64,000 nt of DNA from Billgrantia campisalis (lineage in GTDB: Bacteria; Pseudomonadota; Gammaproteobacteria; Pseudomonadales; Halomonadaceae): the NCBI RefSeq assembly GCF_022341425.1, contig NZ_JABFUC010000001.1:372001-436000 (forward strand), given 5' to 3'. The stretch's first letter is position 1, and each line of letters opens with the position of its first letter. A model generated the notes under the pieces. The model saw only the letters and a program-made list of their open reading frames with translations, was not told the origin of the DNA and did no database searches. Both the position numbers and the translations under genes were made by a program. Shown here in pieces: positions 19,223 to 62,349 of this stretch.

Positions 19223-19340
19223 GAGATGAGCTTTTCCGGCGGCAAGTCTGCGCGAGGGCGCTGTGAACCCATCCATGGGCGCTACTTTTGCCATCCCTGG
19301 CAAAAGACCCTCGCTTCGTCTTGCCCCCGGCGCTCATCTC
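19223..19340 (+). repeat. Palindromic intergenic element, copy A
   Basis: Outer arms GAGATGAGC (19223-19231) and GCTCATCTC (19332-19340) enclose an inner arm GCGAGGG (19252-19258) with CCCTCGC (19308-19314). The family core (GGCGCTGTGAACCC to GGGCGCTAC) is at 19257-19285, and a perfect hairpin TTTTGCCA-TCCC-TGGCAAAA is at 19286-19305. It sits between co-directional aminotransferase and carrier genes. Four other copies are in this window. Confidence 0.85.
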
Positions 19341-19404
19341 TCTGCGCCAAGGCCGGCTGACCGGCTCTTGAGACATCGACCACAACGATAATAGAGAGAG
19401 TTGT

Positions 19405-20751
19405 ATGGAAACCTTTGGCGCCTGGAGCCTGCTCCCCACCCTGGTAGTGCTGGGCATGGCCATTATCACCCGCCGCACCATCGAGTCGCTGATGGCCGGG
19501 GCCCTGGTGGGCCTGCTGATGATCGACCCCAGCACCGTGGTCACCCAGGGCTCGGATATCCTGCTCACAGTACTGGGCAACGACACCGTCACCTGGATCA
19601 TCCTGGTCTGCGGGCTGTTCGGCAGCCTGATCGCCCTGCTGGTCAAGACCGGCGGCGTACTCAGCTTCGGCGACGCCGTCACCCGGCGCATCCATAGCCG
19701 CCGCCAGAGCCTGCTGGCCACCTGGATGCTGGGGCTGGTGATCTTCGTCGACGACTACCTCAATGCGCTGACCATCAGCGCCTCGATGAAGAAGATCACC
19801 GACCGCTTCAAGGTCTCCCGGGAGAAGCTCGCCTATATCGTCGACTCCACGGCGGCGCCGATCTGCATCCTGGTGCCCTTCTCCACCTGGGCGGTGTTCT
19901 TCGCCGGCCTGCTGGAGGAGAACGACGTAGCCGGCAACGGCATGGGCCTCTATATCGAGGCGATTCCCTATATGTTCTACGCCTGGGTGGCCGCCGCCGT
20001 GGTGCCCCTGGTGGCGCTGGGCTGGATTCCCAACCTCGGCCCCATGAAGGCCGCCGAGGCCCGCGCCGCCGCCGGCCAGCTGATGCCTGACGGCGTCGAC
20101 GACAATGCCCTGGAGGTCGAGGACACCGGCGGCAAGCGCCCGCACCTGCTCAACTTCCTGCTGCCCATCGCCACCCTGATCTTCTTCACCTGGTACTTCG
20201 AGATCGACATCCTGCGCGGCGTGATCGTGGCCCTGGCCGTGACCCTGGTGCTGATCGCCAGCCAGAAGCTGCTCAGCTTCCACGATACCTTCGACACCGC
20301 CCTGGACGGTTTCAAGGCGATGATCATGCCGCTCGGCACCCTGGTGGCCGGCTTCACCCTCAAGGAGGTCAACGATGTGCTGGGGCTCACCGACTACGTG
20401 ATCGCCACCGTCCAGCCGCTGATGTCCCCGGGCATGCTGCCGGCGGTGGTCTTCGTCACCATGGCCTTCCTGGCCTTCGCCACCGGCTCCTTCTGGGGCA
20501 TCTTCGCCGTGGCCATGCCCATCGTGCTGCCGCTGGCGGCCAGCATGGACAGCCATATGCCGCTAGTGATCGGCGCCCTGATCTCCGCCAGCGCCTTCGG
20601 CAGCCACGCCTGCTTCTACGGCGACTCCACGGTGCTCTCCGCCCAGGGCAGCGGCTGCACCCCCATGGCCCACGCCCTGACCCAGCTGCCCTATGTGCTG
20701 ATCGCCGCCGTCATCGCCGCCGCGATCTTCCTGATGGTCGGCCACCTGTGA
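19405..20751 (+). CDS. NhaC-family Na+/H+ antiporter-type carrier
   Basis: A 448-residue polytopic inner-membrane protein with about eleven hydrophobic spans. IFVDDYLNALTISASMKK, AYIVDSTAAPICILVPFS and FATGSFWGIFAVAMP correspond to segments of the carrier at 716, but this protein lacks the exported N-terminal domain. It lies between the aminotransferase and agmatine deiminase; the deiminase follows within a few bases. This tight linkage suggests agmatine, putrescine or a product such as GABA is exchanged for a cation, rather than pure Na+/H+ exchange. GAGAGAG precedes the ATG. Confidence 0.83.
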   Translation: METFGAWSLLPTLVVLGMAIITRRTIESLMAGALVGLLMIDPSTVVTQGSDILLTVLGNDTVTWIILVCGLFGSLIALLVKTGGVLSFGDAVTRRIHSRRQSLLATWMLGLVIFVDDYLNALTISASMKKITDRFKVSREKLAYIVDSTAAPICILVPFSTWAVFFAGLLEENDVAGNGMGLYIEAIPYMFYAWVAAAVVPLVALGWIPNLGPMKAAEARAAAGQLMPDGVDDNALEVEDTGGKRPHLLNFLLPIATLIFFTWYFEIDILRGVIVALAVTLVLIASQKLLSFHDTFDTALDGFKAMIMPLGTLVAGFTLKEVNDVLGLTDYVIATVQPLMSPGMLPAVVFVTMAFLAFATGSFWGIFAVAMPIVLPLAASMDSHMPLVIGALISASAFGSHACFYGDSTVLSAQGSGCTPMAHALTQLPYVLIAAVIAAAIFLMVGHL

Positions 20752-20759
20752 GACCCGCT

Positions 20760-21881
20760 ATGAACCAGCCAATCCTCGATACCGTCACCGCCGAGACCAC
20801 GCCCCGGGCCCAGGGCTTCGCCATGCCCGCCGAGTTCGCTCCCCACGACGCCTGCTGGATGCTCTGGCCCCAGCGTCCCGACACTTGGCGCTATGGGGCT
20901 AAGCCAGCCCAGCAGGCCTTCGCCGAAGTGGCCTGCGCCATCGCCGAGAGCGAGACGGTGTTCGTCGGCGTCAACGACGACCAGTACGAGAACGCCCGCA
21001 ACCAGTTGCCCGCCCATATCCGCGTGGTGGAGCTCTCCAGCAACGACGCCTGGATGCGCGACATGGGCCCCACCTTTCTGACCCACCCGGACGGCCGCCT
21101 GGCCATGGTGGACTGGGTGTTCAACGCCTGGGGCGGCCTCAAGGGGGGCCTCTACTTCCCCTGGGACAAGGACAAGCGCATCCGCACCAAGATCGCCGAG
21201 ATGCTCGGCATCCCGCGCTTCGAGGCGCCGGTGGTGCTGGAGGGCGGCGCCATCCATGTGGATGGCGAGGGCACCCTGCTCACCACCGAGGAGTGTCTGC
21301 TCAATCCCAACCGCAACCCGGGAATGAGCCGCGACGAGATGGAGCAGGTGCTGGGCGACACCCTGGGCATCGACAAGGTGATCTGGCTGCCGCGGGGCTG
21401 CCATCTGGACGAAACCGATGGCCACGTGGACAACCTCTGCTGCTTCGTCGCCCCGGGCCAGGTGGCCCTGACCTGGTGCGACGACGACGCGGACCCCCAG
21501 GCCGCCATCTCCCGGGAGGCGCTGGCGGTGCTGGAGGCCGCCACCGACGCCCGGGGCCGGCCGTTGACCGTGCACAAGCTGCCCCAGCCCGGCCCGCTGT
21601 ATATCGCCGAGGACGAGGCCAGCGGCCTGGACCGCCTCAACAGCTCCCATCCGCGCCAGCCCGGCGACCGCATGGCAGGCTCCTACGTCAACTTCTATAT
21701 CGGCAACTCGGTGGTGGTGATGCCCTTCCTGGATCCCGCCCACGACGAGGCGGCCTGGGGGATCCTCCAGGGGCTCTTTCCCGACAAGCAGGTAGTGGGT
21801 GTGCCGGCCCGTGAGATCCTGCTGGGTGGCGGCAATATCCACTGTATTACCCAGCAGCAGCCAAAGGCCCCGCGGGCATGA
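20760..21881 (+). CDS. aguA: Agmatine deiminase
   Basis: A 373-residue guanidino-modifying enzyme. It hydrolyses agmatine to N-carbamoylputrescine and ammonia. Landmarks are WPQRPDTWR near the start, the SSNDAWMRDMGPTF segment, LEGGAIHVDGEGT, CHLDETDGHVDNLCCF with the catalytic Asp/His, and the C-terminal GGGNIHCITQQQP with the nucleophilic Cys, all as in AguA. Length agrees with the family. A GTG at 20748 overlapping the carrier stop is an alternative start; ATG at 20760 is preferred because MNQPILD resembles the normal N terminus. It is the last gene of the aminotransferase-carrier-deiminase series. No aguB follows. Confidence 0.93.
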   Translation: MNQPILDTVTAETTPRAQGFAMPAEFAPHDACWMLWPQRPDTWRYGAKPAQQAFAEVACAIAESETVFVGVNDDQYENARNQLPAHIRVVELSSNDAWMRDMGPTFLTHPDGRLAMVDWVFNAWGGLKGGLYFPWDKDKRIRTKIAEMLGIPRFEAPVVLEGGAIHVDGEGTLLTTEECLLNPNRNPGMSRDEMEQVLGDTLGIDKVIWLPRGCHLDETDGHVDNLCCFVAPGQVALTWCDDDADPQAAISREALAVLEAATDARGRPLTVHKLPQPGPLYIAEDEASGLDRLNSSHPRQPGDRMAGSYVNFYIGNSVVVMPFLDPAHDEAAWGILQGLFPDKQVVGVPAREILLGGGNIHCITQQQPKAPRA

Positions 21882-21973
21882 ATGATGGCCGAGCCGCCGA
21901 CACGCGAGGCGCCGGCCACCCGGAAGCGCCGCAGGCCTGCCTCTCACGTCAGCCGGGCCTGGCGCAGCAACGC

Positions 21974-22000
21974 GGCCGCCGCCCATGGGCGGCGGCCTTT
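21974..22000 (+). terminator. Terminator hairpin after aguA
   Basis: GGCCGCCGCCC (21974-21984) and GGGCGGCGGCC (21987-21997) form a perfect 11-bp arm followed by TTT. It is about 90 bases after the aguA stop. The loop is only two bases, so the inner pairs must open. Confidence 0.65.
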
Positions 22001-22067
22001 CATATGCGTCAGGTCTGAGCGCGGGCCAAGCAAGGCAACACGCCCCCGGGTCGACCCCGAGGGTCGC

Positions 22068-22721
22068 CTATCCCTCGCTTTGCGCGTCATCCAGAGCGGC
22101 CTGCCACTGCACTTCGCCCTCCACCACCGGCAGCCGCTCTGCCTGGGGGGCGCTGTCCATGCGGCGCGACTTGACCTCGCCGTCGACGCGATAGGTGACG
22201 TCGTAGCCGAGGTGCTCCTCATGGCTCTCCATCACGGTATTGCACTGCCGCTCGGTGACGCTCTGGGTCTGCATTTGCGTCTGGGTACGGGGCTGGGCCT
22301 GCCCCGCCTGGGCGTGCTGGTGGGCCTCGACACGGTTCTGCACCTCGCGGCCGGCCAGGCCCCCGCCCACGGCACCGGCCACCGTGGCCAGCTTCTTGCC
22401 GCTGCCGCCGCCTACCTGGTTGCCCAGCAGGCCGCCGACGATGGCGCCCGCCGCAGTACCAACGATGCGGTGCGGGTCGTGACTCCCGGCCGCCTGGCCG
22501 GACTGGGCAACGGGCACCTCCACCGGCACTTCCCGGTTCACCACCACGTCCTGGCACACCTCGCGGGGGCGTTCCACGCTGCGGGTCGCCGCCTCGACGC
22601 CGAGGATCTCGGCGAACTGCGCTGCACTCTCGTCAGGCTGCTGAACCTGCCAGGCGCCCAGCGCCAAGCCGCCCAGCCCGAATACGGCCAGGGTGGTACC
22701 GACCACGATCGATTTGCTCAT
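22068..22721 (-). CDS. Glycine-zipper envelope protein
   Basis: A 217-residue protein. An N-terminal hydrophobic stretch (residues about 5-24) is a signal anchor. Residues about 88-126 form a glycine zipper (GTAAGAIVGGLLGNQVGGG, then VAGAVGGGLAG) of the 2TM type found in SlyB/RcnB-like outer-membrane or periplasmic proteins. Two Cys (in REVCQDV and ERQCNTV) flank a Gln-rich linker. GGAGGT lies six bases before the ATG. It is downstream of the methyltransferase-like gene but separated by a hairpin, so probably independently expressed. Role unknown, presumably envelope integrity. Confidence 0.75.
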   Translation of the reverse strand: MSKSIVVGTTLAVFGLGGLALGAWQVQQPDESAAQFAEILGVEAATRSVERPREVCQDVVVNREVPVEVPVAQSGQAAGSHDPHRIVGTAAGAIVGGLLGNQVGGGSGKKLATVAGAVGGGLAGREVQNRVEAHQHAQAGQAQPRTQTQMQTQSVTERQCNTVMESHEEHLGYDVTYRVDGEVKSRRMDSAPQAERLPVVEGEVQWQAALDDAQSEG

Positions 22722-22921
22722 CTGTCACCTCCAGGGGCTTCTTGGCGCATCGCACGGCGCCCGTTCCGATGGATGGCATCGGCTCCGGGAGATGTGAGAC
22801 CAGAACAGGGTTGCGGGAACGAGGGGCGCCTCCTGCGCCGCCTCCATAGGAGTATAGGCCCCCTGGATTGGGGAAACAGTGCCGAGGCGACACTTGCACA
22901 TTAGCTGACCCGGCGTCGCCA

Positions 22922-22952
22922 GACGGTGACAGCTCGCTCGGCTGCCACCGTC
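22922..22952 (-). terminator. Hairpin after the DmdA-like gene
   Basis: GACGGTG and CACCGTC plus CAGC and GCTG make an 11-bp stem with one mismatch, ten bases beyond the stop of the minus-strand gene. No T run follows, so termination efficiency is uncertain. Confidence 0.4.
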
Positions 22953-22961
22953 GGGCGGGAC

Positions 22962-24158
22962 TCAGCCCTTGGGGATATCCTTGGTAGGATCGTGGAACGG
23001 CTTGGCCACCACCACGGCGTCCTGCATGCCGGTGTTGGCCTCGATGCGCAGCGGCGTGCCCAGCTCGGCATGGGCCGTCGGCACCATGGCATAGCCGACA
23101 TTGCGCTCCTGGCGCGGCGAATGGGTGGCCGAGGTCACCTTGCCGATGCGCTCGCCGGTGTCATCAAAGACGGGAAAGACATCGATCATGGCGCCATCGG
23201 TGAAGTAGCCGACGCTGGGGCCGTCGATCTCCACCCCCACCAGCTTGCGCGACACCCCCTCGGCCTTGATCCGCTCCAGGGCGGCGCGGCCGATGAAGTC
23301 GTCATCCCCGCGCAGGTCGACCATCCAGTCGTAGCCCATGCCCACCTCGAAGGGGTTGGTGTCGTACCAGATGTCGCAGCCGAAGGCGAGAATGCCGCCC
23401 TCGATGCGGCGGATATGGCAGGGGCCGATCACCTGCATGCCGTGGGGACGGCCGGCCTCGAAGACCCGCTGCCAGAGCGCCTCGCCGTAACGGCTGGCAT
23501 CACGCAGGTAGATCTCGTAGCCGATCTCGCCGGAGTAGCCGGTGCGCGAGATCACCACCGACATGCCGTCAAGGGTCGCCTCCATGAGGTAGTAATAGGC
23601 CATCTCCAGCACCCGCTCGCCGAACAGGTCCACCATTACCGCCTTGGCCTTGGGGCCCTGCACCTGCACCGGCGCCACGTCCACTTCCCGGATGGTGACA
23701 TCGAAGTCGGAGCCGTGGGCCAGCCCCTGGCACCACAGCATCACGTCGCTGTCGGCCAGCGAGAGCCAGAAGCGGTTCTCCTCGATGCGCAGCAGCACCG
23801 GGTCGTTGATGATGCCGCCGTCGGGGGCGGTGACGAAGACGTACTTGCACTGCCCCACCTGGCACTGGCGCATGTCACGGGGGACCAGGCGCTGGACGAA
23901 GGCGAAGGCGTCGGGGCCACTGATCTCGATCTGACGCTCCACACCCACGTCCCACAGGGTGACGCCCTGGACCAGCGCCCAGTACTCGTCCACCGGGTCG
24001 GTGTAGAGGCGCGGATGGTAGTGGTGGTTGTAGACGCTGTACTTGCGCACCCCGTGGCGCCGGGAAGCATAGAAGAAGGGGGACTTGCGTATCCGGGGAT
24101 ACAGCAGGATCTCGGGAGCCGCCTGACTGTGCCCGATGTGCTCGGCAAGCTGGGACAT
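22962..24158 (-). CDS. DmdA-like aminomethyltransferase (GcvT fold, folate-dependent)
   Basis: A 398-residue stand-alone GcvT-fold protein. Residues about 45-300 form the folate-binding domain and about 305-395 the C-terminal barrel. The features RIRKSPFFYAS, SVYNHHYHPR, WDVGVERQIEISGPDA, FVQRLVPRDM and GQCKYVFVTAPDGGIINDP resemble the DMSP demethylase DmdA and its relatives more than the glycine-cleavage T protein. Family members move a methyl or methylene group to tetrahydrofolate. ATG at 24158 was chosen because AAGAGGAG lies eight bases before it. It is divergent from the FAD-GcvT fusion. Whether the substrate is DMSP, a methylated amine or another compound cannot be told. Confidence 0.8.
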   Translation of the reverse strand: MSQLAEHIGHSQAAPEILLYPRIRKSPFFYASRRHGVRKYSVYNHHYHPRLYTDPVDEYWALVQGVTLWDVGVERQIEISGPDAFAFVQRLVPRDMRQCQVGQCKYVFVTAPDGGIINDPVLLRIEENRFWLSLADSDVMLWCQGLAHGSDFDVTIREVDVAPVQVQGPKAKAVMVDLFGERVLEMAYYYLMEATLDGMSVVISRTGYSGEIGYEIYLRDASRYGEALWQRVFEAGRPHGMQVIGPCHIRRIEGGILAFGCDIWYDTNPFEVGMGYDWMVDLRGDDDFIGRAALERIKAEGVSRKLVGVEIDGPSVGYFTDGAMIDVFPVFDDTGERIGKVTSATHSPRQERNVGYAMVPTAHAELGTPLRIEANTGMQDAVVVAKPFHDPTKDIPKG

Positions 24159-24191
24159 GGGGGTCACTCCTCTTTACGTGTCGTGCCAGCA

Positions 24192-24334
24192 TGATTCACG
24201 CTCGAATCACCATCGCCGGCGATCCTTGTCTTCGACCCTAGCCCAGCCCCACGCCGCCGTATCGCTACCGGCGTCGAAGACTTTGGTATCGGCGACAGCC
24301 GCCGGCAGACTGTCGCCCCCAGCTAAATCTGGGG
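24192..24334. promoter_or_regulatory. Divergent control region with inverted repeats
   Basis: The 270-bp gap between the two divergent folate-enzyme genes contains TGATTC-N6-GAATCA (24192-24209), a possible dimeric regulator site. Two adjacent hairpins follow: GGCGACAG (24291-24298) with CTGTCGCC (24310-24317), and CCCCAG-N6-CTGGGG (24317-24334). The hairpins end 95 bases before the FAD gene and could lie in its leader. No known riboswitch class is recognised. Confidence 0.4.
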
Positions 24335-24428
24335 CGCCAGAGGATAGCGGGGCGCTCGGTTCCTGCGGCTACAGTAGGGTGTAACAGCGCGACTGGCGCG
24401 GCCAGCGAGTCACCACGGGGGAGCGGTC

Positions 24429-26996: not shown

Positions 26997-27024
26997 CCCG
27001 CCAAGGCCGCCACGCCGATCGCCC

Positions 27025-28074: not shown

Positions 28075-28314
28075 GGGACCTCCTCAGGCTGGGTATCAGT
28101 CAAACTAAGATTACCGACAACCGATGCATCGCGATAGTTGCGCCAACCAACGCCAGGGCCGAGAGTCAAATAGCGCATGCCTGCGCCCTCGACCCGGCGA
28201 CTGTCGCTGCGACGACGCCGCCCGACGCCGGCACGCAAACCCGAACGAGCGGCAGCGCGAATACTGGGCGTACGGTCATACGACGCGCGGATCGACACTT
28301 CAGGAGGCAGGGCG

Positions 28315-30060: not shown

Positions 30061-30094
30061 GCCTGGTCCGAAAAGTTGGCAAGCGGCAGGCAGC

Positions 30095-31441: not shown

Positions 31442-31537
31442 GGGACCCTCCCGTTGCGCCGAGCATTCAAGTCTTGGGCCATCAGGGCTCGCCATGGAAG
31501 GCCGCGGCCGAGCCGCCAAACGCGGGCCCCGGCGGGC

Positions 31538-32287: not shown

Positions 32288-32292
32288 CGTGA

Positions 32293-32793: not shown

Positions 32794-32974
32794 TATCGTA
32801 TTGGGCAAACCGGTCAGGATGAATGATAGATGTCGGCACGGCAGCAAATCGAACTGAAAAACAGCGGCAATCCTCCCCGCCGCTGGTGTTCGGTCTCACA
32901 AACACGCCGACTATCGGAATTATTTCCTGAACAGGTGTACCACAGCGAGCCCCAGGGGCTCCAGTCAAGCCCAC

Positions 32975-43580: not shown

Positions 43581-43608
43581 ATGGCAAGCATCCACGCGAT
43601 TCATACTC

Positions 43609-43782
43609 CGGGAGCAGGCCTGCGAGGAGGCGCTGTGAATACATCCCTGTACGCTACCGACGCCCTGCTTCGCTCTCGCGTCCTGCTCCGCTTGCAGGAC
43701 CGGTGCTGGCCATCCATGGCCAGCCCGTTCGAAGCAGTGCTTCTCACCCCTGGCGTAGGACCTCCTCTTCGACCTGCTCCCC
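43609..43782 (+). repeat. Palindromic intergenic element, copy B (enlarged arm)
   Basis: Outer arm CGGGAGCAGG pairs with CCTGCTCCC (43773-43781), inner arm GAGGAGG (43624-43630) pairs with CCTCCTC (43761-43767). The core is at 43629-43657, with its hairpin changed to TACA-TCCC-TGTA. The second arm ACGCC/GGCGT (43660-43664 and 43752-43756) has an 87-bp interior with further symmetry (GCTTCG to CGAAGC; GGCCAT-CC-ATGGCC). It lies between the tRNA terminator and the converging aminopeptidase. Confidence 0.8.
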
Positions 43783-43802
43783 TCGCCTCTCCCCTACGTG
43801 GC

Positions 43803-47428: not shown

Positions 47429-47504
<76 letters not shown>

Positions 47505-47561
47505 ACTACGCTGCGCTAGAAACTAGACGCTGATAAGCGGATGCCTGGCGGGGCATGCCGA

Positions 47562-47637
<76 letters not shown>

Positions 47638-47668
47638 ATGGCATCGCGTATCCACATGCCGTGTCGTT

Positions 47669-47744
47669 TGGCTCCCCGAGCAGGACTCGAACCTGCGACC
47701 CAATGATTAACAGTCATTTGCTCTACCAACTGAGCTATCGGGGA
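47669..47744 (-). tRNA. tRNA-Asn(GTT), first of array
   Basis: A 76-nt cloverleaf with acceptor stem TCCCCGA/TCGGGGA and an anticodon stem changed as a pair (AATGACT/AGTCATT rather than AGTGACT/AGTCACT). Anticodon GTT; CCA encoded. First of three in transcription order. Confidence 0.95.
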
Positions 47745-47855
47745 ACGACCGCGAACACGGGGCGTAGTATACGTAACGCGCCGCCAAGGTCAAGTGCCAA
47801 CGCCCATTGAGCGTGCGGGGGCACTCCGGGCCCTTCCCACCGCACCGCCACAACG

Positions 47856-47892
47856 CAAGGCGCCCACCCGGTGAGACCGAGTGGGCGCCTTG
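47856..47892 (-). terminator. Strong hairpin downstream of the inverted tRNA-Met
   Basis: CAAGGCGCCCAC (47856-47867) pairs perfectly with GTGGGCGCCTTG (47881-47892). It begins ten bases beyond the 3' end of the minus-strand tRNA-Met. The T content after it is low (CGTTGTGG), so termination may be partial. Confidence 0.55.
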
Positions 47893-47901
47893 CTGCTGTT
47901 C

Positions 47902-47978
47902 TGGTGGCTACGCCCTGATTCGAACAGGGGACCCCATCATTATGAGTGATGTGCTCTAACCAGCTGAGCTACGTAGCC
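47902..47978 (-). tRNA. tRNA-Met(CAT), elongator, inverted copy
   Basis: This gene is identical over all 77 nt to the plus-strand gene at 43461-43537 but in opposite orientation. The anticodon CAT and encoded CCA are both present. Confidence 0.96.
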
Positions 47979-48079
47979 TTTATCGAGGCGGGGCATGAAC
48001 GTCCTTGCCGTCGACCGGGCAGGATTATGCCCGAGGGGCGCGCCACTGGCAAGCGAATGACGGCGATGTCTTTTTATTG

Positions 48080-48093
48080 ATTGAACGTTCAAT
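48080..48093. promoter_or_regulatory. BetI operator
   Basis: ATTGAACGTTCAAT is a perfect 14-bp palindrome within an AT-rich island (TTTTTATTG before, AAAAAAA after). It resembles the BetI box of E. coli (ATTGAACGTCCAAT). It is 70 bases upstream of betI, where bound repressor would shut off betIBA when choline is absent. Confidence 0.85.
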
Positions 48094-48162
48094 AAAAAAA
48101 TGGCACTCTTGTCCCAATCCGGTATCGCCGGCAACGGCCAAGCATGCAAAGGAGTCTTCCCG

Positions 48163-48768: not shown

Positions 48769-48780
48769 CAGGAGATCCCC

Positions 48781-50250: not shown

Positions 50251-50288
50251 GCCTTCCGTCACCTCCATCGCCGCCTACCCCACCTGCA

Positions 50289-50399
50289 AGGGGCGCCGGG
50301 GGCAGGTCGTAGCGAGGGTCCTATGCCAGGGATGGCATCGGTAGCACCCAGGGATGGGTTCACAGCGCCCTCGCGAAGGCCTGCCGCCGGAACAGCCCC
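50289..50399 (-). repeat. Palindromic intergenic element, copy C
   Basis: This copy is on the minus strand. Outer arm GGGGC (50290-50294) pairs with GCCCC (50395-50399), and AGCGAGGG pairs with CCCTCGC. The core (50369-50341) has its hairpin as ACCC to GGGT, an A-T extension matched on both sides. The second hairpin is ATGCCA-GGGA-TGGCAT (50323-50338). It sits inside the bet operon between betB and betA. Confidence 0.85.
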
Positions 50400-50425
50400 G
50401 TACTGATGTTGCCTCGAGAGACACC

Positions 50426-52117: not shown

Positions 52118-52151
52118 AGCGGGCAGGCCTGCTCCCCCCCCCATCCCCCCA

Positions 52152-52174
52152 ACGCCCCGCCCAGTGCGGGGCGT
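52152..52174 (+). terminator. Terminator hairpin after betA
   Basis: ACGCCCCGC (52152-52160) pairs with GCGGGGCGT (52166-52174), 35 bases after the betA stop, with only scattered T residues following. Confidence 0.5.
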
Positions 52175-52283
52175 CGTCGTTGCTGCCGGCTCCATAAAAG
52201 GGGTGGTCAGCCACTGCCAGATGGGCTAGCCTGAGAGTTTCAAACAACCGTTCTAAACGCAATCCCTCAAACGGAGACGAGGC

Positions 52284-54731: not shown

Positions 54732-54756
54732 TGCGCACCTCCCTCGAGCCAGCCCC

Positions 54757-54783
54757 CATGCCCCGGCCATGTGCCGGGGCATG
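54757..54783 (+). terminator. Hairpin after fadE
   Basis: CATGCCCCGGC (54757-54767) pairs with GCCGGGGCATG (54773-54783), 25 bases after the stop. There is no T run. Confidence 0.5.
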
Positions 54784-54869
54784 CAGCTCCCACCTAGACA
54801 CCTGGGGCCATTCCAGAACAGCAACTATCCGCACCATTCCTTCCTGACCACGCCCCTCGAACCTCGCCC

Positions 54870-56819
54870 CTAAAGCGGCCAGAACAGCAGGATCATGGGA
54901 ATGGCCACCACCAGCACCACCAGAGAGAGCGGCAGACCCATTCGCCAGTAGTCGCTGAAGCGGTAGCCGCCGGGGCCCATCACCAGGGTATTGGACTGGT
55001 GGCCGATGGGGGTGAGAAAGGCGCAGGAGGCGCTCACCGCCACCGCCATCAGGAAGGGGTCCACCGAGGCGTCGAAACCACGCGCCAGGCTCGCCGCGAT
55101 GGGCGCCATTAGCAGCGCCGCCGCGGCGTTATTGACGATATTGGAAAGCACCATCGACAGTACGAAGAGGCCGACCAGCGTCACGACCACCGGCCATTCG
55201 GTGCCCCAGGCGAGTAGGGCCTCGGCGATCAGCGCCGCCCCACCGCTGGTCTCCAGCGCCTGGCCCACCGGGATCATGGCGCCGAGCAGCACGATTACCG
55301 GGCCGTCGATGGCCTGATAGCCGTCGCGCAGCGGCAGCACCCCCGCCAGCAGGGAGATCAGCGCCGCCGTGGATAGCGCCACCGCCGCCGGCAGCAGTCC
55401 CAGCAGGATCGCCAGGATCGCCACCGCAAAGATGCCCAGCGACACCAGCAGCAGGCGCGGCTGGCCAAGCGTCAGGTTGCGGCTGGCCAGGGGCAGGCAG
55501 CCAAGCGTCGCCAGGCTTTCGGACAGCTCGCTCTCGCCGCCCTGCAGCAGCAGCACATCCCCGGGACGGAAACGGATCTCGCGCAGGCGCTGCTTGAGGC
55601 GGCCGCCGTCCCGGGCCACCGCCACCAGGTGCAGGCCGAACTGGTTGTGCAGGCGCAGCTGGGTCACGGTGCGGTTGACCATCATGGAGTCGTTGCGCAC
55701 CACCGCCTCCACTAGCTGTAGCCCCTCGGTGTCGACGCCGTTCTTGCTCTCCTTCTTCTCCTTCTTCTCCTTCTTCTCCTTCTTCTCCTTCTTCTCCTTC
55801 TTCTCTTTCCTATCCTTGCCCTTCTCTTGCTCCTCGTCCTGCCGCTCGCGGTGTTGCTTGTCGCCGCTCTGCTCTGCCTCCCCGCCCGCATCGGCTTTCG
55901 CTTCCTCGGCGGCCTCCTTCTCTTCGTCGTCCACGTCCTTGCCCAGACGCAGGCCCACCTTGTCCTCGAGCAGCTTCATCTCCTCGGGGCCGGCCTCCAT
56001 CAGCAGGATATCGCCCTCTCGGAGGGTGCCGAAGAAGGCGTGACCGGCGCGGCGCTTCTCGTCGCGCACCACCGCCAGCACCGGGACGGTCTCCTCCAGT
56101 TCCTGCTGCAGCTCGCGCAGGCTCAGGCCGTTGGCCTTCGACTCCTCGCCGACGCGCAGCTCCACCAGGTAGTTGGCGGTATCGAACATCGCCTCGGTGG
56201 AGGCCTTGCCCGCCCGCTTGGGGGTCAGACGCCAACCCAGCAGCAGGATGAAGACCAACCCCACGAGGGCAACCGCAACGCCAACCGGGGTGAAAGAGAA
56301 CATCCCGAAGTTGTCGCCGGTCACCGAGCCCCGGTAGCTGGCAATGATGATGTTGGGCGGGGTGCCGATCAGCGTGGTGAGCCCGCCGAGCAGCGAGCCG
56401 AAGGCCAGCGGCATCAGCAGCAGCGACGGCGAGGTATCGTGCTCACGAGCCAGGCGCATGGCCACCGGCAGCAGCAGCGCGAGCGCGCCGACGTTGTTCA
56501 TGAAGCCGGAAAGCACCACCACGGTGCCGGTCAGCGCGGCCAGCTGCAGGAAGAGCCGTTCACCCACCCTGAGCACCTGTGCGGCGATCACGTCCACCAC
56601 CCCGGAGCGTTCGAAGCCTCGGCTGAGCACCAGCACTGCGGCCACGGTGATCACCGCCGGATGGCCGAAGCCGAAAAAGGCCTCCTCCCCCGGCACCAGG
56701 CCCAGCACCACCGACCCCAGCAGCGCGGCGAGCGCTACCAGGTCGTAGCGAAAGCGCCCCCAGACGAAGGCGGCGAGCGTTGCGCCCAGCACGATAAAGA
56801 CCAGGGTGCTGTCGGCCAT
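54870..56819 (-). CDS. SLC13-family permease with TrkA-C domains and a KEK-repeat linker
   Basis: A 649-residue inner-membrane transporter of the divalent-anion:Na+ symporter/CitMHS type. About six N-terminal spans, with GFMNNVGALALLLPVAMRL, precede a cytoplasmic section of about 280 residues, and GVLPLRDGYQAIDGPVIVL then starts the second membrane half. The cytoplasmic section resembles two TrkA-C (RCK-C) domains. They are separated by an acidic stretch and a KEK-repeat run (about DRKEKKEKKEKKEK) encoded by 9-bp units at roughly 55750-55815. GGAGGT lies six bases before ATG 56819. Substrate unknown; sulfate or dicarboxylate are family options. Confidence 0.85.
   Translation of the reverse strand: MADSTLVFIVLGATLAAFVWGRFRYDLVALAALLGSVVLGLVPGEEAFFGFGHPAVITVAAVLVLSRGFERSGVVDVIAAQVLRVGERLFLQLAALTGTVVVLSGFMNNVGALALLLPVAMRLAREHDTSPSLLLMPLAFGSLLGGLTTLIGTPPNIIIASYRGSVTGDNFGMFSFTPVGVAVALVGLVFILLLGWRLTPKRAGKASTEAMFDTANYLVELRVGEESKANGLSLRELQQELEETVPVLAVVRDEKRRAGHAFFGTLREGDILLMEAGPEEMKLLEDKVGLRLGKDVDDEEKEAAEEAKADAGGEAEQSGDKQHRERQDEEQEKGKDRKEKKEKKEKKEKKEKKEKKESKNGVDTEGLQLVEAVVRNDSMMVNRTVTQLRLHNQFGLHLVAVARDGGRLKQRLREIRFRPGDVLLLQGGESELSESLATLGCLPLASRNLTLGQPRLLLVSLGIFAVAILAILLGLLPAAVALSTAALISLLAGVLPLRDGYQAIDGPVIVLLGAMIPVGQALETSGGAALIAEALLAWGTEWPVVVTLVGLFVLSMVLSNIVNNAAAALLMAPIAASLARGFDASVDPFLMAVAVSASCAFLTPIGHQSNTLVMGPGGYRFSDYWRMGLPLSLVVLVVAIPMILLFWPL
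55747..55806 (-). repeat. In-frame 9-bp microsatellite (KEK coding)
   Basis: About seven tandem units of AAGGAGAAG (read on the minus strand) code for Lys-Glu-Lys repeats in the cytoplasmic linker of the SLC13 permease. Units are nearly identical at the DNA level and in frame, so changes in copy number alter linker length without a frameshift. Confidence 0.85.
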
Positions 56820-56906
56820 CGGTTCACCTCCGTGTGAGAACATGGCCCCAGCATCGCCAGGCAGGGGCCCTGGCGACAAGTATTTTCTCCACCGCTCGAG
56901 GCTAAT

Positions 56907-57001
56907 CCGGGGACAAGCCTTCAGGGAGGCGCTGTAAACCCTTCCCTGGGCGCTACCGACGCCTTCCATGGCGTAGGACCTCCCCTACGGCTTATCCCCG
57001 G
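56907..57001 (+). repeat. Palindromic intergenic element, copy D
   Basis: CCGGGGACAAGCC (56907-56919) pairs with GGCTTATCCCCGG (56989-57001) with one mismatch; GGGAGG (56924-56929) pairs with CCTCCC (56979-56984). The core is at 56928-56956 and the second hairpin is ACGCC-TTCCAT-GGCGT (56959-56974). It lies between the minus-strand crotonase and permease genes, outside both. Confidence 0.85.
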
Positions 57002-57048
57002 CGCCCCTCGCTCAGAGCATCAGCACTAATGAGGAGACCCGACCTGAT

Positions 57049-57867
57049 CTACTTCGCCATCTTCTCCAGCATGGCATTGACGGCATCCAGGTGCTCGGGT
57101 TCGTTATGGCACATGCCCTGGAAGACCGCGCAGAGGTCGAGGAAGTCCTTGAGCTCGGTGCGCTGCGCCATCTTCATCAGCCGCTTGGTGAGACGCGTGG
57201 CCTTGGGCGGCTGGGCGGCGATGTGCCCGGCCAGTTCGCCGACGCGCGCCATCAGCGCCTTGGGTTCGGTCACCTCGAGCACGATGCCGTAGGCCTTCGC
57301 CTCCTCGGCGTCGATCACCCGGCCGGTGAGGGTCAGCTCGAAGGCGCGCTGGTAGCCGATCAGGCGCTGCATGAACCAGGCGCCGCCGTCGCCGGGAATG
57401 ATCCCCAGGTTGAGGAAGGTCTCGCCGAACTTGGCCTTCGAGGAGGCGATGCGGATATCGGCCATGTTGGCCAGGTCGAAGCCGGCGCCGATGGCAGGCC
57501 CGTTGACCGCGGCGATGATCGGCACCTCCACCGCCGCCAGTGCCAGCGGGATGCGCTGGATGCCGCGCCGATAGCGCGCCGAGACCTCGGCCACGTCGCC
57601 GGCGAAGTCGCCGCCGCGGTTGGCCATGTCCTTGACGTTGCCGCCGGCGGAGAAGGCGCTGCCTTCGCCGGTGATCACCAGCACCGAGACGTCCTCGCAG
57701 GCGTTGACCCACTCGGCGACAGTGACGATATCGTCCACCAGGGCAGTGCCGGTCAAGGCGTTGCGCACGTCGTGTCGATCCAGGGTCAGGGTCGCCACCC
57801 GCCCTTCCAGGGTCAGGCGGGCGTCGTTCAGCGGGGGCAGAGTCGGTTGTGTCGAGGTCTGGTTCAT
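57049..57867 (-). CDS. Crotonase-family enoyl-CoA hydratase/isomerase (atypical active site)
   Basis: A 272-residue crotonase. Oxyanion-hole segments FSAGGNVKDM and AVNGPAIGAGFDLA are present. By eye alignment to mitochondrial enoyl-CoA hydratase, Glu144 is replaced by Asp (GAGFDLA) and Glu164 by Phe (FGETFLNLG), while the Asp in IPGDGG lies where dienoyl-CoA isomerase has its catalytic Asp. It is therefore more likely an isomerase or other crotonase reaction than a plain hydratase. It overlaps the acyl-CoA synthetase stop by four bases, so the two are translationally coupled. Confidence 0.8.
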   Translation of the reverse strand: MNQTSTQPTLPPLNDARLTLEGRVATLTLDRHDVRNALTGTALVDDIVTVAEWVNACEDVSVLVITGEGSAFSAGGNVKDMANRGGDFAGDVAEVSARYRRGIQRIPLALAAVEVPIIAAVNGPAIGAGFDLANMADIRIASSKAKFGETFLNLGIIPGDGGAWFMQRLIGYQRAFELTLTGRVIDAEEAKAYGIVLEVTEPKALMARVGELAGHIAAQPPKATRLTKRLMKMAQRTELKDFLDLCAVFQGMCHNEPEHLDAVNAMLEKMAK

Positions 57868-60053
57868 GCGTTGGCTTCCTGCTTTCTTTCCACGATAACC
57901 CGGGCATCCACCACGGCATAGCCGTCGGCGTTGACGATCACCGGATTGAGGTCGAGCTCGGCGAGCGCCGGGTAGGCCTCGACGATGCGCGACACCTTGA
58001 GCAACAGGTCGACCAGCGCCGCCTTGTCCACCGCCTGCTCGCCGCGCACGCCACCGAGGATCCGCTTGGCCTTGATCTGCTCGACCATCTCCTCGGCGTC
58101 ACGCCTGGACAGCGGAATGGCGCGGAAGGCCACGTCCTCGAGGATCTCCACGAAGATGCCCCCCAGGCCGAACATCAGCACCGGGCCGAAGATCGGGTCG
58201 CGGATCACCCCGAGGATCACCTCCACCCCCTTCTTCGCCATGGGCGCGACCAGCACGCCCTCGATCTCGGCGCTGGCATCGTAGGCGAGGCACGACGCAA
58301 GGATCGCCTCGCGGGCCTCGCGCATGGCCGCCTCGCCGGTGACATTCAGCTTCACGCCGCCGGCATCGGATTTGTGGAGGATATCCTTGGAGACCACCTT
58401 CATGGCCAGCGGCGTATCGCCGCTCTCTCCTGAAAACCGCGCCGCCGCGGACGCGAGCTCCGCCTCATCGCGGACCACCAGTTCGAGCGGCACCTCGATG
58501 CCGTGGTCGCGCAGCAGCTGCTTGGCCTCGTACTCGAAGAGGTCGCGGCCCTCGCCCTGGGCACGCTGGAAGATGGCGGAGAGCTCAGGCAGCGGCTCGA
58601 CGCTGCGCTCGCGGCTCTGGCGCTCGCTCTGCGCCAGGTACTGGCCGCGCTCACCCAGCGCCGAGAGCACGCGCACCGCATGCTCGATGGAGGCGTAGAT
58701 GGGCAGGCCGGCCTCGTGGAGGCGGCGCAGCGCCGGCGGCTTGATCGGCGTATAGAGACTGTAGACCACCAGCGGCTTGGTGGTCGCGCGCGAGAGATCC
58801 ACCATCGCCTCGGCGCCGCGCATCTCGTCGCCCAGCAGCGACTCGGCGAAGCGGATGCTGTAGCCGCCGAACATGCCCACCAGGAAGACGCTGTCGACGT
58901 TGTCGTCGGCGGCGACGATCTCCATGCAGGTGGCCAGCAGCGACGGATTGGCGTCGGTGGAGCCGGCCACGTCCACCGGGTTGACGGTGGAGGCCTGCGG
59001 AAAGAGCACGTCACGCAGCTTCTGGCGGGTCGTCTCGGCGAGCTCGGCCAGTTCCAGGCCCGCCTCGGCCAGGCGGTCGGAAGCGATGGTGGCCTGGCCG
59101 CCGCCGTCGGAGATCACCGCCACGCGCTTGCCGCGGGCCTTCTGCAGCAGACCAAGGCCCTCGGCCACCGGCAGGATCTCGTCGGAGTGCTGCACCACGC
59201 TGACCCCCGCCTGCTTGAGCAGGTCCACGGTCATGGCGTAGCTGCCGGCGAGCGCCCCGGTGTGGGAGCTGGCCGCCTTCTGGCCGGCTTCGGTGGAGCC
59301 CGACTTGTAGACCACCACCGGCTTCATGGCGGTCACCTCGCGGGCCACCTCCAGGAAGCGTCGCCCGTCACGAAAGCCCTCCACGTAGAGGGTGGCGACC
59401 CGGGTATTCTCGTCCTCGCCCAGGTAGCGCAGGTAGTCGTTGAAGCCGATATCGCTCTGGTTGCCCGGCCCCACGTAGGTGCTGAACCCCACATGGCCGT
59501 TGTGCTGGGCCTCCAGCGCCAGCGACAGCAGCATGTTGCCGGACTGGGAGATGATCCCCACGCCGCCGGGCTTGACGTTGTCCAGCGCCAGCAGGTTGAT
59601 CTGATGGTGCAGGTTGAAGATGCCCGAGGTATTGGGGCCGATGATGCGCACGCCGTGGGCGCGGGCCTTGTCCATCATCTCGCGCTCGAGCTCGGCGCCC
59701 TCCCCGCCGATCTCGGCAAAGCCGCTGGCGAGTATCACCGCCCCCTTGATGCCGCGTCGCCCGCACTCGGCGATCAGCCCCGGCACCGAGGCCGCCGGGG
59801 TGCAGATCAGCGCCAACTCCGGATTGCCGGGGATGGCGGTGACCGAGGGCCACGCCTTGACCCCCAGGATCATGTCCGCCTTGGGGTTGACCGGGTAGAT
59901 GTCGCCCCGGTAGCCATCCTTGATCAGCCCGACCATGGCCTTGTAGCCCCGCTTGGTGGGGTCACTCGAGGCGCCGATCACGGCGATGCCGCCGGGCGCC
60001 AGGATGTCGTGCAGCGGGCTACGGGTCGGGAGGTGTCCTTCGATGGGATTCAT
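57864..60053 (-). CDS. ADP-forming acyl-CoA synthetase (acetate-CoA ligase family)
   Basis: A 729-residue NDP-forming acyl-CoA synthetase. Order: CoA-binding domain (about residues 20-150), two succinyl-CoA-ligase-like domains (about 160-470) and an ATP-grasp domain (about 500-725). The phosphorylatable His is in SSHTGALAGSYAMT. GPNTSGIFNLHH and EKTxSDAGG-like KSDAGGVKLN segments are typical. It makes an acyl-CoA thioester from a carboxylate, ATP and CoA. Followed by an overlapping crotonase and preceded by a second, it should activate a specific organic acid; feruloyl-type, short-chain or branched acids are possible. Not resolvable from sequence. Confidence 0.87.
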   Translation of the reverse strand: MNPIEGHLPTRSPLHDILAPGGIAVIGASSDPTKRGYKAMVGLIKDGYRGDIYPVNPKADMILGVKAWPSVTAIPGNPELALICTPAASVPGLIAECGRRGIKGAVILASGFAEIGGEGAELEREMMDKARAHGVRIIGPNTSGIFNLHHQINLLALDNVKPGGVGIISQSGNMLLSLALEAQHNGHVGFSTYVGPGNQSDIGFNDYLRYLGEDENTRVATLYVEGFRDGRRFLEVAREVTAMKPVVVYKSGSTEAGQKAASSHTGALAGSYAMTVDLLKQAGVSVVQHSDEILPVAEGLGLLQKARGKRVAVISDGGGQATIASDRLAEAGLELAELAETTRQKLRDVLFPQASTVNPVDVAGSTDANPSLLATCMEIVAADDNVDSVFLVGMFGGYSIRFAESLLGDEMRGAEAMVDLSRATTKPLVVYSLYTPIKPPALRRLHEAGLPIYASIEHAVRVLSALGERGQYLAQSERQSRERSVEPLPELSAIFQRAQGEGRDLFEYEAKQLLRDHGIEVPLELVVRDEAELASAAARFSGESGDTPLAMKVVSKDILHKSDAGGVKLNVTGEAAMREAREAILASCLAYDASAEIEGVLVAPMAKKGVEVILGVIRDPIFGPVLMFGLGGIFVEILEDVAFRAIPLSRRDAEEMVEQIKAKRILGGVRGEQAVDKAALVDLLLKVSRIVEAYPALAELDLNPVIVNADGYAVVDARVIVERKQEANA

Positions 60054-60140
60054 GTGCTTGCTGACCTTGACCTCTGGGGTCGCTTGAAGGGGGTCAAAGA
60101 CCCGGCCACTGGCCGGGCGGGTATCGTGTAGCGGCCAGGA

Positions 60141-60935
60141 TCACTCGCCGCGAAAACGGGGGGGGCGCTTCTCGGCAAAGGCATCCACGCCTTCCTGCCA
60201 GTCGGCGGTGGTCGAGCAGGTGAACACCGCGTCCAGCTCCTGCTGCAACTGGCTCTCGAGCCCGGTATCGCTGCCCTGATTGACCAGCCGCTTGAGCATG
60301 GCGATGGAGATCGGCGCCTGCTTGCCCAACTCCTCGGCCAGCCGGTGGGCTTCTGGCATCAGCGATTCCACCGGCCAGCTCGAGGTGGCAAGACCGATGC
60401 GCGCCGCTTCCCCACCGTCGATGCGCCGCCCGGTGAAGAGCAGCTCACGGGCCTTGTTGAGCCCCACCAGCTGCGGCAGCAGCTTGGAGACACCGCCCCC
60501 GACGCAGGTGCCGATACTGGTCTCGGGGAAGCCGATCTGGGCCTCGTCGGCCATCACGATGAAGTCGCAGGCGACCGCCATCTCGGCGCCGGCGCCCAGG
60601 GCATAGCCGTTGACCGCGGCGATGACCGGCTTATCCAGCCGCAGGATCGCCTCGCAGACATCGTTGCCCAGCTGCAGGTACTGACGGCGCTGGAACAGGC
60701 TGCGCTTGGCACCGCCGTGCTCCTTCATGTCCGCGCCGACGCAGAAGGCGCGCCCCTCACCGGTGAGGATCACCGCGCGTACATCGACGTCTGCCTCGGC
60801 ATCGGCCAGCGCCGCCAGCAGCTCGGTATACAGGGTTTCCACCACCGCATTGAGACGCTGCGGGCGGTTGAAGCGAATCTCCATCACCGGGCCGTGGCGG
60901 GCGATGATCAGGGTCTCGGGACTGGCTTGGCTCAT
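60141..60935 (-). CDS. Crotonase-family enoyl-CoA hydratase
   Basis: A 264-residue crotonase. Oxyanion-hole segments FCVGADMKEH and AVNGYALGAGAEMAV are present, and both catalytic Glu positions are kept (GAGAEMAV and IGFPETSIG), consistent with a true hydratase. It is the first gene of the minus-strand acyl-CoA module, divergent from the RpiR regulator; the synthetase starts 87 bases downstream. ATG at 60935 was preferred to a GTG at 60962, neither having a strong ribosome site. Confidence 0.85.
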   Translation of the reverse strand: MSQASPETLIIARHGPVMEIRFNRPQRLNAVVETLYTELLAALADAEADVDVRAVILTGEGRAFCVGADMKEHGGAKRSLFQRRQYLQLGNDVCEAILRLDKPVIAAVNGYALGAGAEMAVACDFIVMADEAQIGFPETSIGTCVGGGVSKLLPQLVGLNKARELLFTGRRIDGGEAARIGLATSSWPVESLMPEAHRLAEELGKQAPISIAMLKRLVNQGSDTGLESQLQQELDAVFTCSTTADWQEGVDAFAEKRPPRFRGE

Positions 60936-61057
60936 GGACGGATCAGACACTCTTTCAGACACTTGCGAAGTCGAAGGGTAACGGTCAGGCGCAGGCTCTA
61001 TAACGCCCGGGGAGACGTTCCCCGCCAGGAAACAAACGTGCCATTATCCTCAACACA

Positions 61058-61154
61058 GTGACACGCCTGTTCTGACGAACATCCTAGCCAAGCCCGGTGA
61101 CGCCGTCAACACGAGCGTGTCATATCCCATTGCATTAGGAAACGATTGTGTCAT
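61058..61154. promoter_or_regulatory. Candidate operator repeats in the crotonase/RpiR divergent region
   Basis: GTGTCAT occurs at 61117-61123 and 61148-61154, 31 bp apart (three helical turns), and the inverted form GTGACAC lies at 61058-61064. The rest of the 306-bp gap (60936-61241) has no gene. The repeats sit between divergent genes, so RpiR binding here is plausible. Confidence 0.4.
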
Positions 61155-61175
61155 TTATCCGACCGTCGCTTGCGT

Positions 61176-61181
61176 TACAAT
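61176..61181 (+). promoter_or_regulatory. Possible -10 box for the RpiR regulator
   Basis: TACAAT lies 60 bases upstream of the regulator's GTG start and just downstream of the GTGTCAT repeats. The matching -35 hexamer is weak. Confidence 0.3.
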
Positions 61182-61241
61182 GTCGCCGCGTTACACCCCA
61201 AGCCATCGACGTGGTGATGCCACCGCCTGCAGGAGAGCGCC

Positions 61242-62168
61242 GTGCTGGATGACCAACCGCGCAGTGACGACACGCCAAGCGGCGAGACGCCCCCGCCCAC
61301 GGGGCTGGATGCCGTCAATCAGCAGCTGGCCGAGGCCTATCCCGAGCTCAGCCCGCAGCTCAAGCTCGCCGCCGGCTACGTACTGGAGCATCCCGTCGAG
61401 ATCGCCTTTCAGTCGATTCGCAAGTCGGCGGCCGCCGCCCAGGTCACCGCCTCCACCCTGGTGCGCCTGGCCAAGCGGCTGGGCTTCGAGAGCTTCGATC
61501 AGTTTCGCGAGGTGTTCCAGTCGGCGGTGCAGGCCGGGCCGGTGGAGCTCTCCGGCCGCGCCAACCAGCTACGCAGCCTGGCCAGCCAGACCGACGACCA
61601 GGTGTTTCTCGACGTGGGGGATGCCGCCTTCGACAACATCGGCAGGCTGTTCACCGCCGACAATCAGACCCGGGTCCGCGATGCCGCCAAGCTGCTGCTC
61701 GGCGCCGACAAGATCGCCGTGGTGGGATTTCGCGACACCTTCGCCTGTGCCTACCACTTCGCCTACGTGGGGCGCATCGCGATGCCCAATATCCAGCTGA
61801 TCCGCGGCCAGGAGGGGGGACTCTTGACCGAGCTCTCCACCTTCGGGGAAGGCGACGTGGTGGTGGCCTTCGGCTTCGAACCCTACTGTGCCGAAACCAT
61901 GCGCGCGCTGGAGATCGCCCGGGCCAGCGGCATCAGCCCCATCGTGGTGACCGACACCCTGCGCTCGCCGCTGGTGCCGGGCTCGACCATCACCTTCACC
62001 GTGGCCAACGCCACGCCGCACTTCTTCCCCTCGATTCTCTCGGCGATCACCCTGATCGAGGTGCTGCTGGCGGAGTGCGTGGCCTTTGGCCCCGACGCGC
62101 TGGTGGACAACGTGGCGAGCTTCGAGTCGCGGATGCGCCAGATGGGCGCGTACGTGGAAAATTCCTGA
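61242..62168 (+). CDS. MurR/RpiR family transcriptional regulator
   Basis: A 308-residue regulator. The N-terminal RpiR helix-turn-helix (about residues 20-100: YPELSPQLKLAAGYVLEHPV, ITASTLVRLAKRLGF-like VTASTLVRLAKRLGFESFDQ) is followed by a SIS domain (about 135-290, KIAVVGFRDTFACAYHF) that in the family binds phosphosugars or other small ligands. It starts with GTG; CAGGAG lies six bases upstream. It is divergent from the crotonase/acyl-CoA synthetase module and is its probable regulator. A role in acyl-acid catabolism would be unlike the sugar-phosphate role of classical RpiR. Confidence 0.88.
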   Translation: MLDDQPRSDDTPSGETPPPTGLDAVNQQLAEAYPELSPQLKLAAGYVLEHPVEIAFQSIRKSAAAAQVTASTLVRLAKRLGFESFDQFREVFQSAVQAGPVELSGRANQLRSLASQTDDQVFLDVGDAAFDNIGRLFTADNQTRVRDAAKLLLGADKIAVVGFRDTFACAYHFAYVGRIAMPNIQLIRGQEGGLLTELSTFGEGDVVVAFGFEPYCAETMRALEIARASGISPIVVTDTLRSPLVPGSTITFTVANATPHFFPSILSAITLIEVLLAECVAFGPDALVDNVASFESRMRQMGAYVENS

Positions 62169-62242
62169 GGGGCGAGGGGCGAGGGGCGAGGGGCAAGCTG
62201 AGAGCCCCCCTCGCGGCTTGCCATCGGCTGACTGATAGCGAA

Positions 62243-62349
62243 GGGCGCCGGGGGTAGGCCAAAGAGGAGGTCATCCTTCAGGGATGAAGGATGTAGCGCC
62301 CAGGGAGGGGTTTACAGCGCCTCCTCGCCGGCCTGCCGCCGGATCAGCC
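62243..62349 (-). repeat. Palindromic intergenic element, copy E
   Basis: Minus-strand copy. GAGGAGG (62264-62270) pairs with CCTCCTC (62320-62326) and TAGGCC (62255-62260) with GGCCTG (62330-62335, one mismatch). The core is at 62321-62293 and the second hairpin is a perfect nine-pair CATCCTTCA-GGGA-TGAAGGATG (62272-62293). It sits between converging genes. Confidence 0.85.

Follow-up and report, generated by a model that had tools for sequence, protein, structure and literature searches.

What are the structured palindromes that recur between the genes of Billgrantia campisalis, and what keeps their shape? The question is raised by a stretch of 64,000 nucleotides of contig NZ_JABFUC010000001.1 (positions 372,001 to 436,000; hereafter the window), part of a 4.27-Mb genome, in which an earlier note had described five intergenic palindromes of a family that it did not recognise. 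All five were found, within a few bases of where that note had placed them. They are members of a large folded-repeat family, for the most part unannotated, that is found in many gammaproteobacteria; its fold is conserved by covariation, and its folded strand is the one that displays two GGA-bearing hexaloops. Judging from sequence, we lean towards the view that each element is an RNA module that would dock one CsrA/RsmA dimer and would be transcribed within intergenic or 3' untranslated region (3'-UTR) RNA.

A conserved fold on one strand

Covariation supports the fold at two levels. Among 25 short copies from the B. campisalis genome (alignment A2), 21 of 36 pairs have changed on both sides, compared with 9.4 expected from shuffling and 2-5 when the pairing partners are slid. 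In an alignment of 110 rows from many gammaproteobacteria (A4), 35 of the 36 pairs have changed on both sides. The cells of A4 are paired in 93.0% of cases versus 55.0% after shuffling; this alignment was fitted to the model and thus favours the structure, but slid partners nonetheless pair at 32-45%. Pairing ends at the 109 nt of the short form (61 pairs beyond it, 73 after shuffling). Compensatory stem changes, which the earlier note had claimed, are therefore real. In both A2 and A4 covariation exceeded that of the shuffled controls, so that the refuting outcome named in the note, covariation no greater than shared ancestry would give, did not arise, and there is strong support for selection on the folded multi-arm shape.

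What pairs as a wobble on one strand appears as an A.C mismatch on its complement, so that an excess of G.U over A.C marks the strand that folds. Read on the strand with the GGA loops (the GGA strand), the B. campisalis copies show G.U and A.C in a ratio of 34:5, with two fixed G.U pairs left out, and of 11:4 if the other strand is used to derive the structure (both hand counts). The ratio is 113:48 in 87 class-wide elements (p=3e-7, under a scoring in which G.T and A.C count the same), 91:15 in A4 after removal of four antisense shadow rows, and 13:1 in A5, a set of 30 rows outside model building; five pairs in A4 and four in A5 were set aside as fixed wobbles or as often unpaired. The loop pattern described below fits 25 of the 30 A5 rows. 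Since G.U exceeds A.C on the GGA strand, the folding molecule is that strand, as RNA or as single-stranded DNA. The strand described in the earlier note is its complement, and that account, drawn on the opposite strand, contains neither the ANGGAN loops nor the relation to TwoAYGGAY RNA presented below.

Two hexaloops at a constant distance

The short form of the element is 109 nt long and reads, on the GGA strand, outer stem, inner stem, GUC, hairpin 2, GUAGC, hairpin 1, UUYACAGC and the other arms of the stems. Loop statistics were taken from 55 gapless full-length copies of the 84 in the genome, the others having indels, long forms or low scores. The loop is ANGGAN (N, any base) in 55/55 copies for hairpin 2 and in 54/55 for hairpin 1, and a C-G pair closes both loops in all 55. 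Positions A1, G3, G4 and A5 are fixed and the two N positions are variable: the second is G in 41/55 (hairpin 2) and 51/55 (hairpin 1), and the sixth can be any base. The stem of hairpin 2 varies and consists of three to four pairs, a bulge and two pairs. That of hairpin 1 is short, mostly CCC/GGG, with TAC/GTA in 7/55; the pairing of CCCAT with ATGGG proposed earlier stands as far as the stem goes, but its extra bases are part of the hexaloop.

The distance between the two GGA motifs is 19 nt in the B. campisalis copies and 19-21 nt in 85 of 87 class-wide copies. Long forms have an insert of ~75 nt in hairpin 2, which carries a third hairpin again ending in ATGGAT; the GGA of this third loop is lost in one congener (G021). 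Outside the loops, the letters AGC and TTYACRGCG are conserved.

A predicted docking site for CsrA

Dedicated decoy RNAs are known to restrain the global regulator CsrA/RsmA. Proteins of this family bind ANGGAN hairpin loops (PMC3791407), and the consensus selected for CsrA by systematic evolution of ligands by exponential enrichment, RUACARGGAUGU, was found mostly in six-base loops (PMC7652899). A CsrA dimer bridges sites 10 to 63 nt apart and does so best above 18 nt (PMC7652899). By sequence, the element has the make-up of a CsrA/RsmA site, with an ANGGAN hexaloop hairpin and a second site at bridging distance. The B. campisalis genome holds one CsrA-family match. Its product can be aligned without a gap to CsrA chains of known structure, and it matches 2jpp, the structure of a CsrA-family protein with hcnA RNA. 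With A, GG and A fixed, the Ns free and the spacing constant, CsrA binding appears to be the most economical reading.

According to the mechanism that we propose, the outer stem and a three-way junction would hold the two hairpins side by side, each presenting its C-G-closed ANGGAN hexaloop, and one CsrA/RsmA dimer could then grip both GGAs across their 19-21 nt. The elements would be transcribed as part of intergenic or 3'-UTR transcripts and bound there by CsrA. Together, the many dispersed copies might act as a decoy and so leave less CsrA free, or they might tag the mRNAs that carry them for altered decay or translation.

The five copies of the window

Each copy is listed with its GGA strand, its scores with two models, R1 (a covariance model built from the 25 short B. 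campisalis copies) and R2 (a model of the wider family), its hexaloops and its neighbours.

19228..19336, minus strand: element 1, short form (R2 102.2 bits, R1 120.9 bits); hexaloops AGGGAT at 19293-19298 (hairpin 2) and ATGGAT at 19271-19276 (hairpin 1); both neighbours on the plus strand, a class-III aminotransferase gene on one side and a Na+/H+ antiporter-family gene on the other, which makes the GGA strand antisense.
43603..43789, minus strand: element 2, long form (R2 63.1 bits); hairpin 1 TAC-AGGGAT-GTA with its loop at 43643-43648; hairpin 2 opened by the ~75-nt insert, which bears the third hairpin GCTGGCC-ATGGAT-GGCCAGC with its loop at 43712-43717; directly behind an M18 aminopeptidase gene (-), 3' of its stop codon, with a convergent tRNA-Met gene (+) on the other side.
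50290..50398, plus strand: element 3, short form (R2 109 bits); hexaloops AGGGAT at 50328-50333 (hairpin 2) and AGGGAT at 50350-50355 (hairpin 1); between betB-like (Aldedh) and betA-like (GMC oxidoreductase) genes, identified with Pfam, the GGA strand being sense to both.
56899..57007, minus strand: element 4, short form (R2 101.6 bits); hexaloops ATGGAA at 56964-56969 (hairpin 2) and AGGGAA at 56942-56947 (hairpin 1); between an enoyl-CoA hydratase gene (-) and a citrate-transporter-family gene (-), the GGA strand being sense.
62242..62350, plus strand: element 5, short form (R2 99.5 bits); hexaloops AGGGAT at 62280-62285 (hairpin 2) and AGGGAG at 62302-62307 (hairpin 1); 3' of an RpiR-family gene (+), towards which a zinc alcohol dehydrogenase gene (-) converges.

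A core had been proposed for all five. The pattern GGCGCTGTRAA-N{4,20}-GYGCTAC is present in four window copies, and in none of 100 shuffles, but not in element 2, because the TAC/GTA stem of its hairpin 1 puts an A at the G of the pattern. By our gene calls, three elements lie between co-directional genes and two between convergent ones, as had been noted.

Further features of the window were noted alongside. Four perfect copies of GAGGGGC (62167-62194) stand at the 3' end of the RpiR-family gene, directly before element 5, and a 9-bp tandem repeat (TCTCCTTCT, 7.8 copies, 55748-55817) lies within the citrate-transporter-family gene. Three tRNA-Asn genes and one tRNA-Met gene lie in a row on the minus strand (47429-47978).

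Copy number and distribution

Searching the B. campisalis genome with R1 gave 84 matches at E<=0.01, of which 68 score >=68 bits and 16, mostly long or truncated copies, 30-41 bits. A strict core pattern yielded 59 exact copies and none in the reversed control. The most alike pair among the 55 full-length copies is 95% identical. With up to 66 candidates scored per genome, 33 of 36 congeners have copies, 1-61 each, and no matches were found in the remaining three (G001, G033 and G035). Five genomes from other families of the order match, G046 once and weakly. In the class sample, 72 of 369 genomes, B. campisalis included, match R2 at E<=1e-4; 10 candidates were scored per genome, and the copy numbers, and perhaps the count of genomes, should accordingly be read as minima. 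The expectation of the earlier note that further copies would occur in the same genome and in relatives is thus borne out. Genome G051 holds nine CsrA-family matches and ten element matches.

A pattern scan of named genomes found at least 119 stretches, and among the 80 matches listed are Halomonas, Stenotrophomonas, Marinobacter, Microbulbifer, Shewanella, Rheinheimera, Moritella and Yersinia proxima. The Yersinia element matches 5 of 5,426 E. coli genomes; two E. coli copies that we inspected lie between transposase genes or their remnants and an alcohol dehydrogenase gene. Plasmid searches with a window copy returned one Halomonas record, and phage searches with the one element tried returned no match. 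Four of 17 pattern-matching viral contigs (L398, L404, L405 and L408) hold the element at >=58 bits; these copies may be prophage or host flanks.

Core and arms differ in how well they are kept. Several other families have a long, almost perfect outer stem (pairing score median 23, highest 35, in 87 elements). Copies within G039, however, show 80% identity in the core and 29-30% in the arms, the latter being near chance; the corresponding values are 69% and 30-33% in G041 and 73% and 33-34% in G055, and the arms are 50-57% identical in G051. For example, one G039 element (L109:1501-1610) has a shared core of ~60 nt and arms that match only each other in that genome, where 31 other places share part of its core, 17 of them over 55-70 nt. 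An empty site in congener G111, compared at 69-75% identity, lacks both arms. Miniature inverted-repeat transposable elements have terminal inverted repeats, a matching transposase and target duplications; in the present family the arms of the outer stem form an inverted repeat, a further repeat, AGGGCTATCGCAG, is seen in some copies, and no transposase was identified. Copies probably move as non-autonomous elements.

Two arrangements were seen alongside. Elements of G039 and G041 often form inverted pairs, ~55-85 nt apart, with their GGA strands pointing away from each other (L101:1345-1610, L104:1501-1798, L105:1501-1787). The further inverted repeat, AGGGCTATCGCAG / CTGCGATAGCCCT, lies in full or as a single arm in the 40 nt outside some B. 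campisalis copies (for example G000:C33:315454, C45:164421 and C22:186733; seen, not counted).

Known relatives

The nearest relative is the Rfam family TwoAYGGAY (RF01731), which shares the two GGA-hexaloop hairpins and a poorly conserved outer stem. Its hosts include gammaproteobacteria (Weinberg et al. 2010, PMC2864571), and it has independently been predicted to bind or sequester CsrA (PMC4333381). RF01731 matches from G039, G041, G051 and G055 (L411-L414, L416) were all found by R2 with 50-80 bits; among six genomes, two RF01731 matches (G039 and G041) exceed the curated cut-off of 43 bits, and the B. campisalis genome has no RF01731 match at E up to 10. The window has no Rfam match, and all 20 class-wide loci examined score below every Rfam cut-off. 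The two loops are mostly AGGGAN in B. campisalis and AYGGAY in the Rfam family, and the second hairpin is one long stem in the Rfam consensus and an interrupted one here. Tandem G-A pairs have been reported in one TwoAYGGAY stem (PMC4333381); the B. campisalis copies have an isolated G.A cell at pair 10-98 in 8/55 cases. Dispersal in many copies is a feature of the present family, and the accessible parts of the TwoAYGGAY literature contain no mention of it.

The Yersinia proxima element (L290:375-481) is a match to Ysr224 (RF02770) with 94 bits, so that a small RNA (sRNA) has already been described at one branch of the family. Ysr224 is a temperature-responsive Yersinia sRNA that a 2022 survey lists among the most prevalent sRNAs (PMC9029176). 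At other element loci where it is listed, Ysr224 scores below its cut-off.

CsrB/CsrC and RsmX/Y/Z are discrete sRNA genes with several GGA hairpins that bind CsrA/RsmA. The elements likewise have several GGA hairpins, but their GGA strand is not followed by a T-run, and Rfam yields no match for them within the window. No GacA-box-like palindrome was found within 8 kb of the listed B. campisalis copies, and this search is uninformative: allowing one mismatch gave four palindromes versus two in the reversed control, with no Rfam match around the four.

Repetitive extragenic palindromic (REP) elements and bacterial interspersed mosaic elements, with which the earlier note had compared the palindromes, are similar in location, being likewise multi-copy, palindromic and placed behind genes (GTAG/CGTC REPs). 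The likeness does not extend further. GTAG REPs are palindromes of 20-40 bp with a terminal GTAG (PMC3733652), whereas the elements described here are 109 nt long with two loops of fixed sequence. GTAG stands beside hairpin 1 in Halomonas copies, a likeness to REPs, and is found in 15/15 Halomonadaceae-type elements, but in 0/72 others. Nor did searches link the family to a REP-associated tyrosine transposase (RAYT), for which the earlier note had proposed to look. No Y1/RAYT (PF01797) match was found in the B. campisalis genome and no Y1 transposase at E<=0.001 in 14 congeners with 12-36 copies; with 1.5-3 kb fetched around each, 1 of 26 Y1-transposase loci has an element nearby, and 0 of 18 with a narrower model. 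These results do not support an origin from RAYT/REP systems. None of the open-access titles and abstract openings on REP/GTAG repeats, Halomonas and CsrA/RsmA that we searched describes the family, and the accessible text of a 2025 REP survey mentions neither Halomonas, Marinobacter nor CsrA (PMC12306157).

Proposed CsrA docking and rival explanations

Gene positions rest on a simple codon-usage caller rather than on an annotation. In B. campisalis, the GGA strand is sense to co-directional genes in 50 cases and antisense in 12 (48:11 once copies that lie in called genes are left out, with a contig-stratified z=3.4; among the 68 copies that score above 60 bits, 37:11). The 48 sense co-directional copies follow the stop codon at a median distance of 40.5 nt, and divergent gaps, which make up 36% of the intergenic bases of the window, hold 6 of the 84 copies.

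Several observations weigh against CsrA docking. A transcribed tag should be sense more often, so the lack of a bias elsewhere counts here: the sense to antisense ratio is 17:14 for 40 loci of four congeners, 17:9 for congener best hits (four loci shared with the former set) and 24:20 across the class. Small sets give 2:1 (named Halomonadaceae), 4:3 (G041), 2:4 (G039), 3:0 (G055) and 3:1 (G051). At the betB-betA locus, where 84 of 85 spacers given from 90 genomes were resolved, the core is sense in 16 and antisense in 13, 28 spacers are <=11 nt and 27 are other or decayed. We considered the 50:12 strand bias as proof of RNA function, but it is not repeated in the congeners, the small sets or the class, and is therefore not used as support; the orientation data weaken the idea that each copy acts on its carrier mRNA.

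The loop statistics have a built-in component. Of 122 pattern-derived matches with enough flank, 80 pass a filter for a second GGA hairpin and an outer stem, and these underlie the class-wide orientation count (the spacing, class-wide wobble-pair and GTAG counts use 87 of the 122, kept by a slightly looser filter). The search pattern itself builds in the loop conservation of hairpin 1 in this set; hairpin 2 lies outside the pattern, but the filter that kept 80 required its GGA. Both models, R1 and R2, favour the loops on which they were trained. The AGC and TTYACRGCG letters are not explained by CsrA, tolerance of G.U would be equally expected if a single DNA strand folds, and Ysr224 is modelled on the opposite (TCC) strand with another structure. 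Two of the congeners without the element, G001 and G033, have CsrA, so that the element is dispensable.

A rival explanation is a selfish, non-autonomous mobile DNA element, whose single GGA strand would fold, with loops that a trans-acting transposase or recombinase, and not CsrA, would recognise. The 84 matches are dispersed between unrelated flanks, with the best pair among 55 at 95% identity, and the betB-betA spacers fit an element that is gained and lost, showing gain, loss, decay and both orientations. The viral-contig copies, a G.T tolerance that suits folded DNA equally and the lack of a clear strand preference outside B. campisalis point the same way. This explanation is nevertheless rather unlikely in our judgement: the Y1 searches offer no enzyme in the B. 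campisalis genome and an element near one of 26 such loci, we know of no enzyme that prefers ANGGAN hexaloops, and the fixed A-GGA, the free N2 and N6 and the fixed spacing of 19-21 nt match CsrA closely.

A more general role, in which any stable hairpin at a 3' end blocks exonucleases or limits read-through as REP-like stem-loops do, accords with the position directly behind stop codons and with the scarcity in divergent gaps, but mere stability needs neither ANGGAN loops nor fixed spacing nor a conserved junction. Intrinsic termination is ruled out, with TTTT within 15 nt 3' of the GGA strand in 0/68 copies of >=60 bits and of the other strand in 2/68. We regard such a role as improbable. 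More improbable still, and already disfavoured, is the absence of any function, with arm-to-arm copying during replication (quasi-palindrome correction) keeping the arms complementary without selection. The near-perfect, copy-specific outer arms of several families, such as those of G039 beside its well-kept core, count in its favour; however, it predicts no strand asymmetry, in conflict with the 113:48 excess of G.U, it would not keep loops and junction, and the arms of G051 are 50-57% identical between copies. Docking of a CsrA dimer remains the reading that we favour over these.

Implications

A wider proposal, which we hold to be doubtful, is that the family is a gammaproteobacteria-wide class of mobile regulatory RNA: a CsrA-docking core of ~60 nt spreading to dozens of 3' UTRs, its arms remade at each site as a perfect inverted repeat, and acting as a distributed decoy gained and lost copy by copy. 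Model R2 allows hitherto unannotated intergenic sequence to be annotated. If tens of dispersed elements per genome bind CsrA, models of the Csr system in many gammaproteobacteria miss many sites; a model of Csr targets for 16 species, including Halomonas hydrothermalis, presented in a 2026 preprint, assessed 5' UTRs and the first 100 bases of coding sequence (PMC12889724). Binding by CsrA would also suggest what TwoAYGGAY and Ysr224 are. If it is true, this repeat family links mobile DNA to post-transcriptional control.

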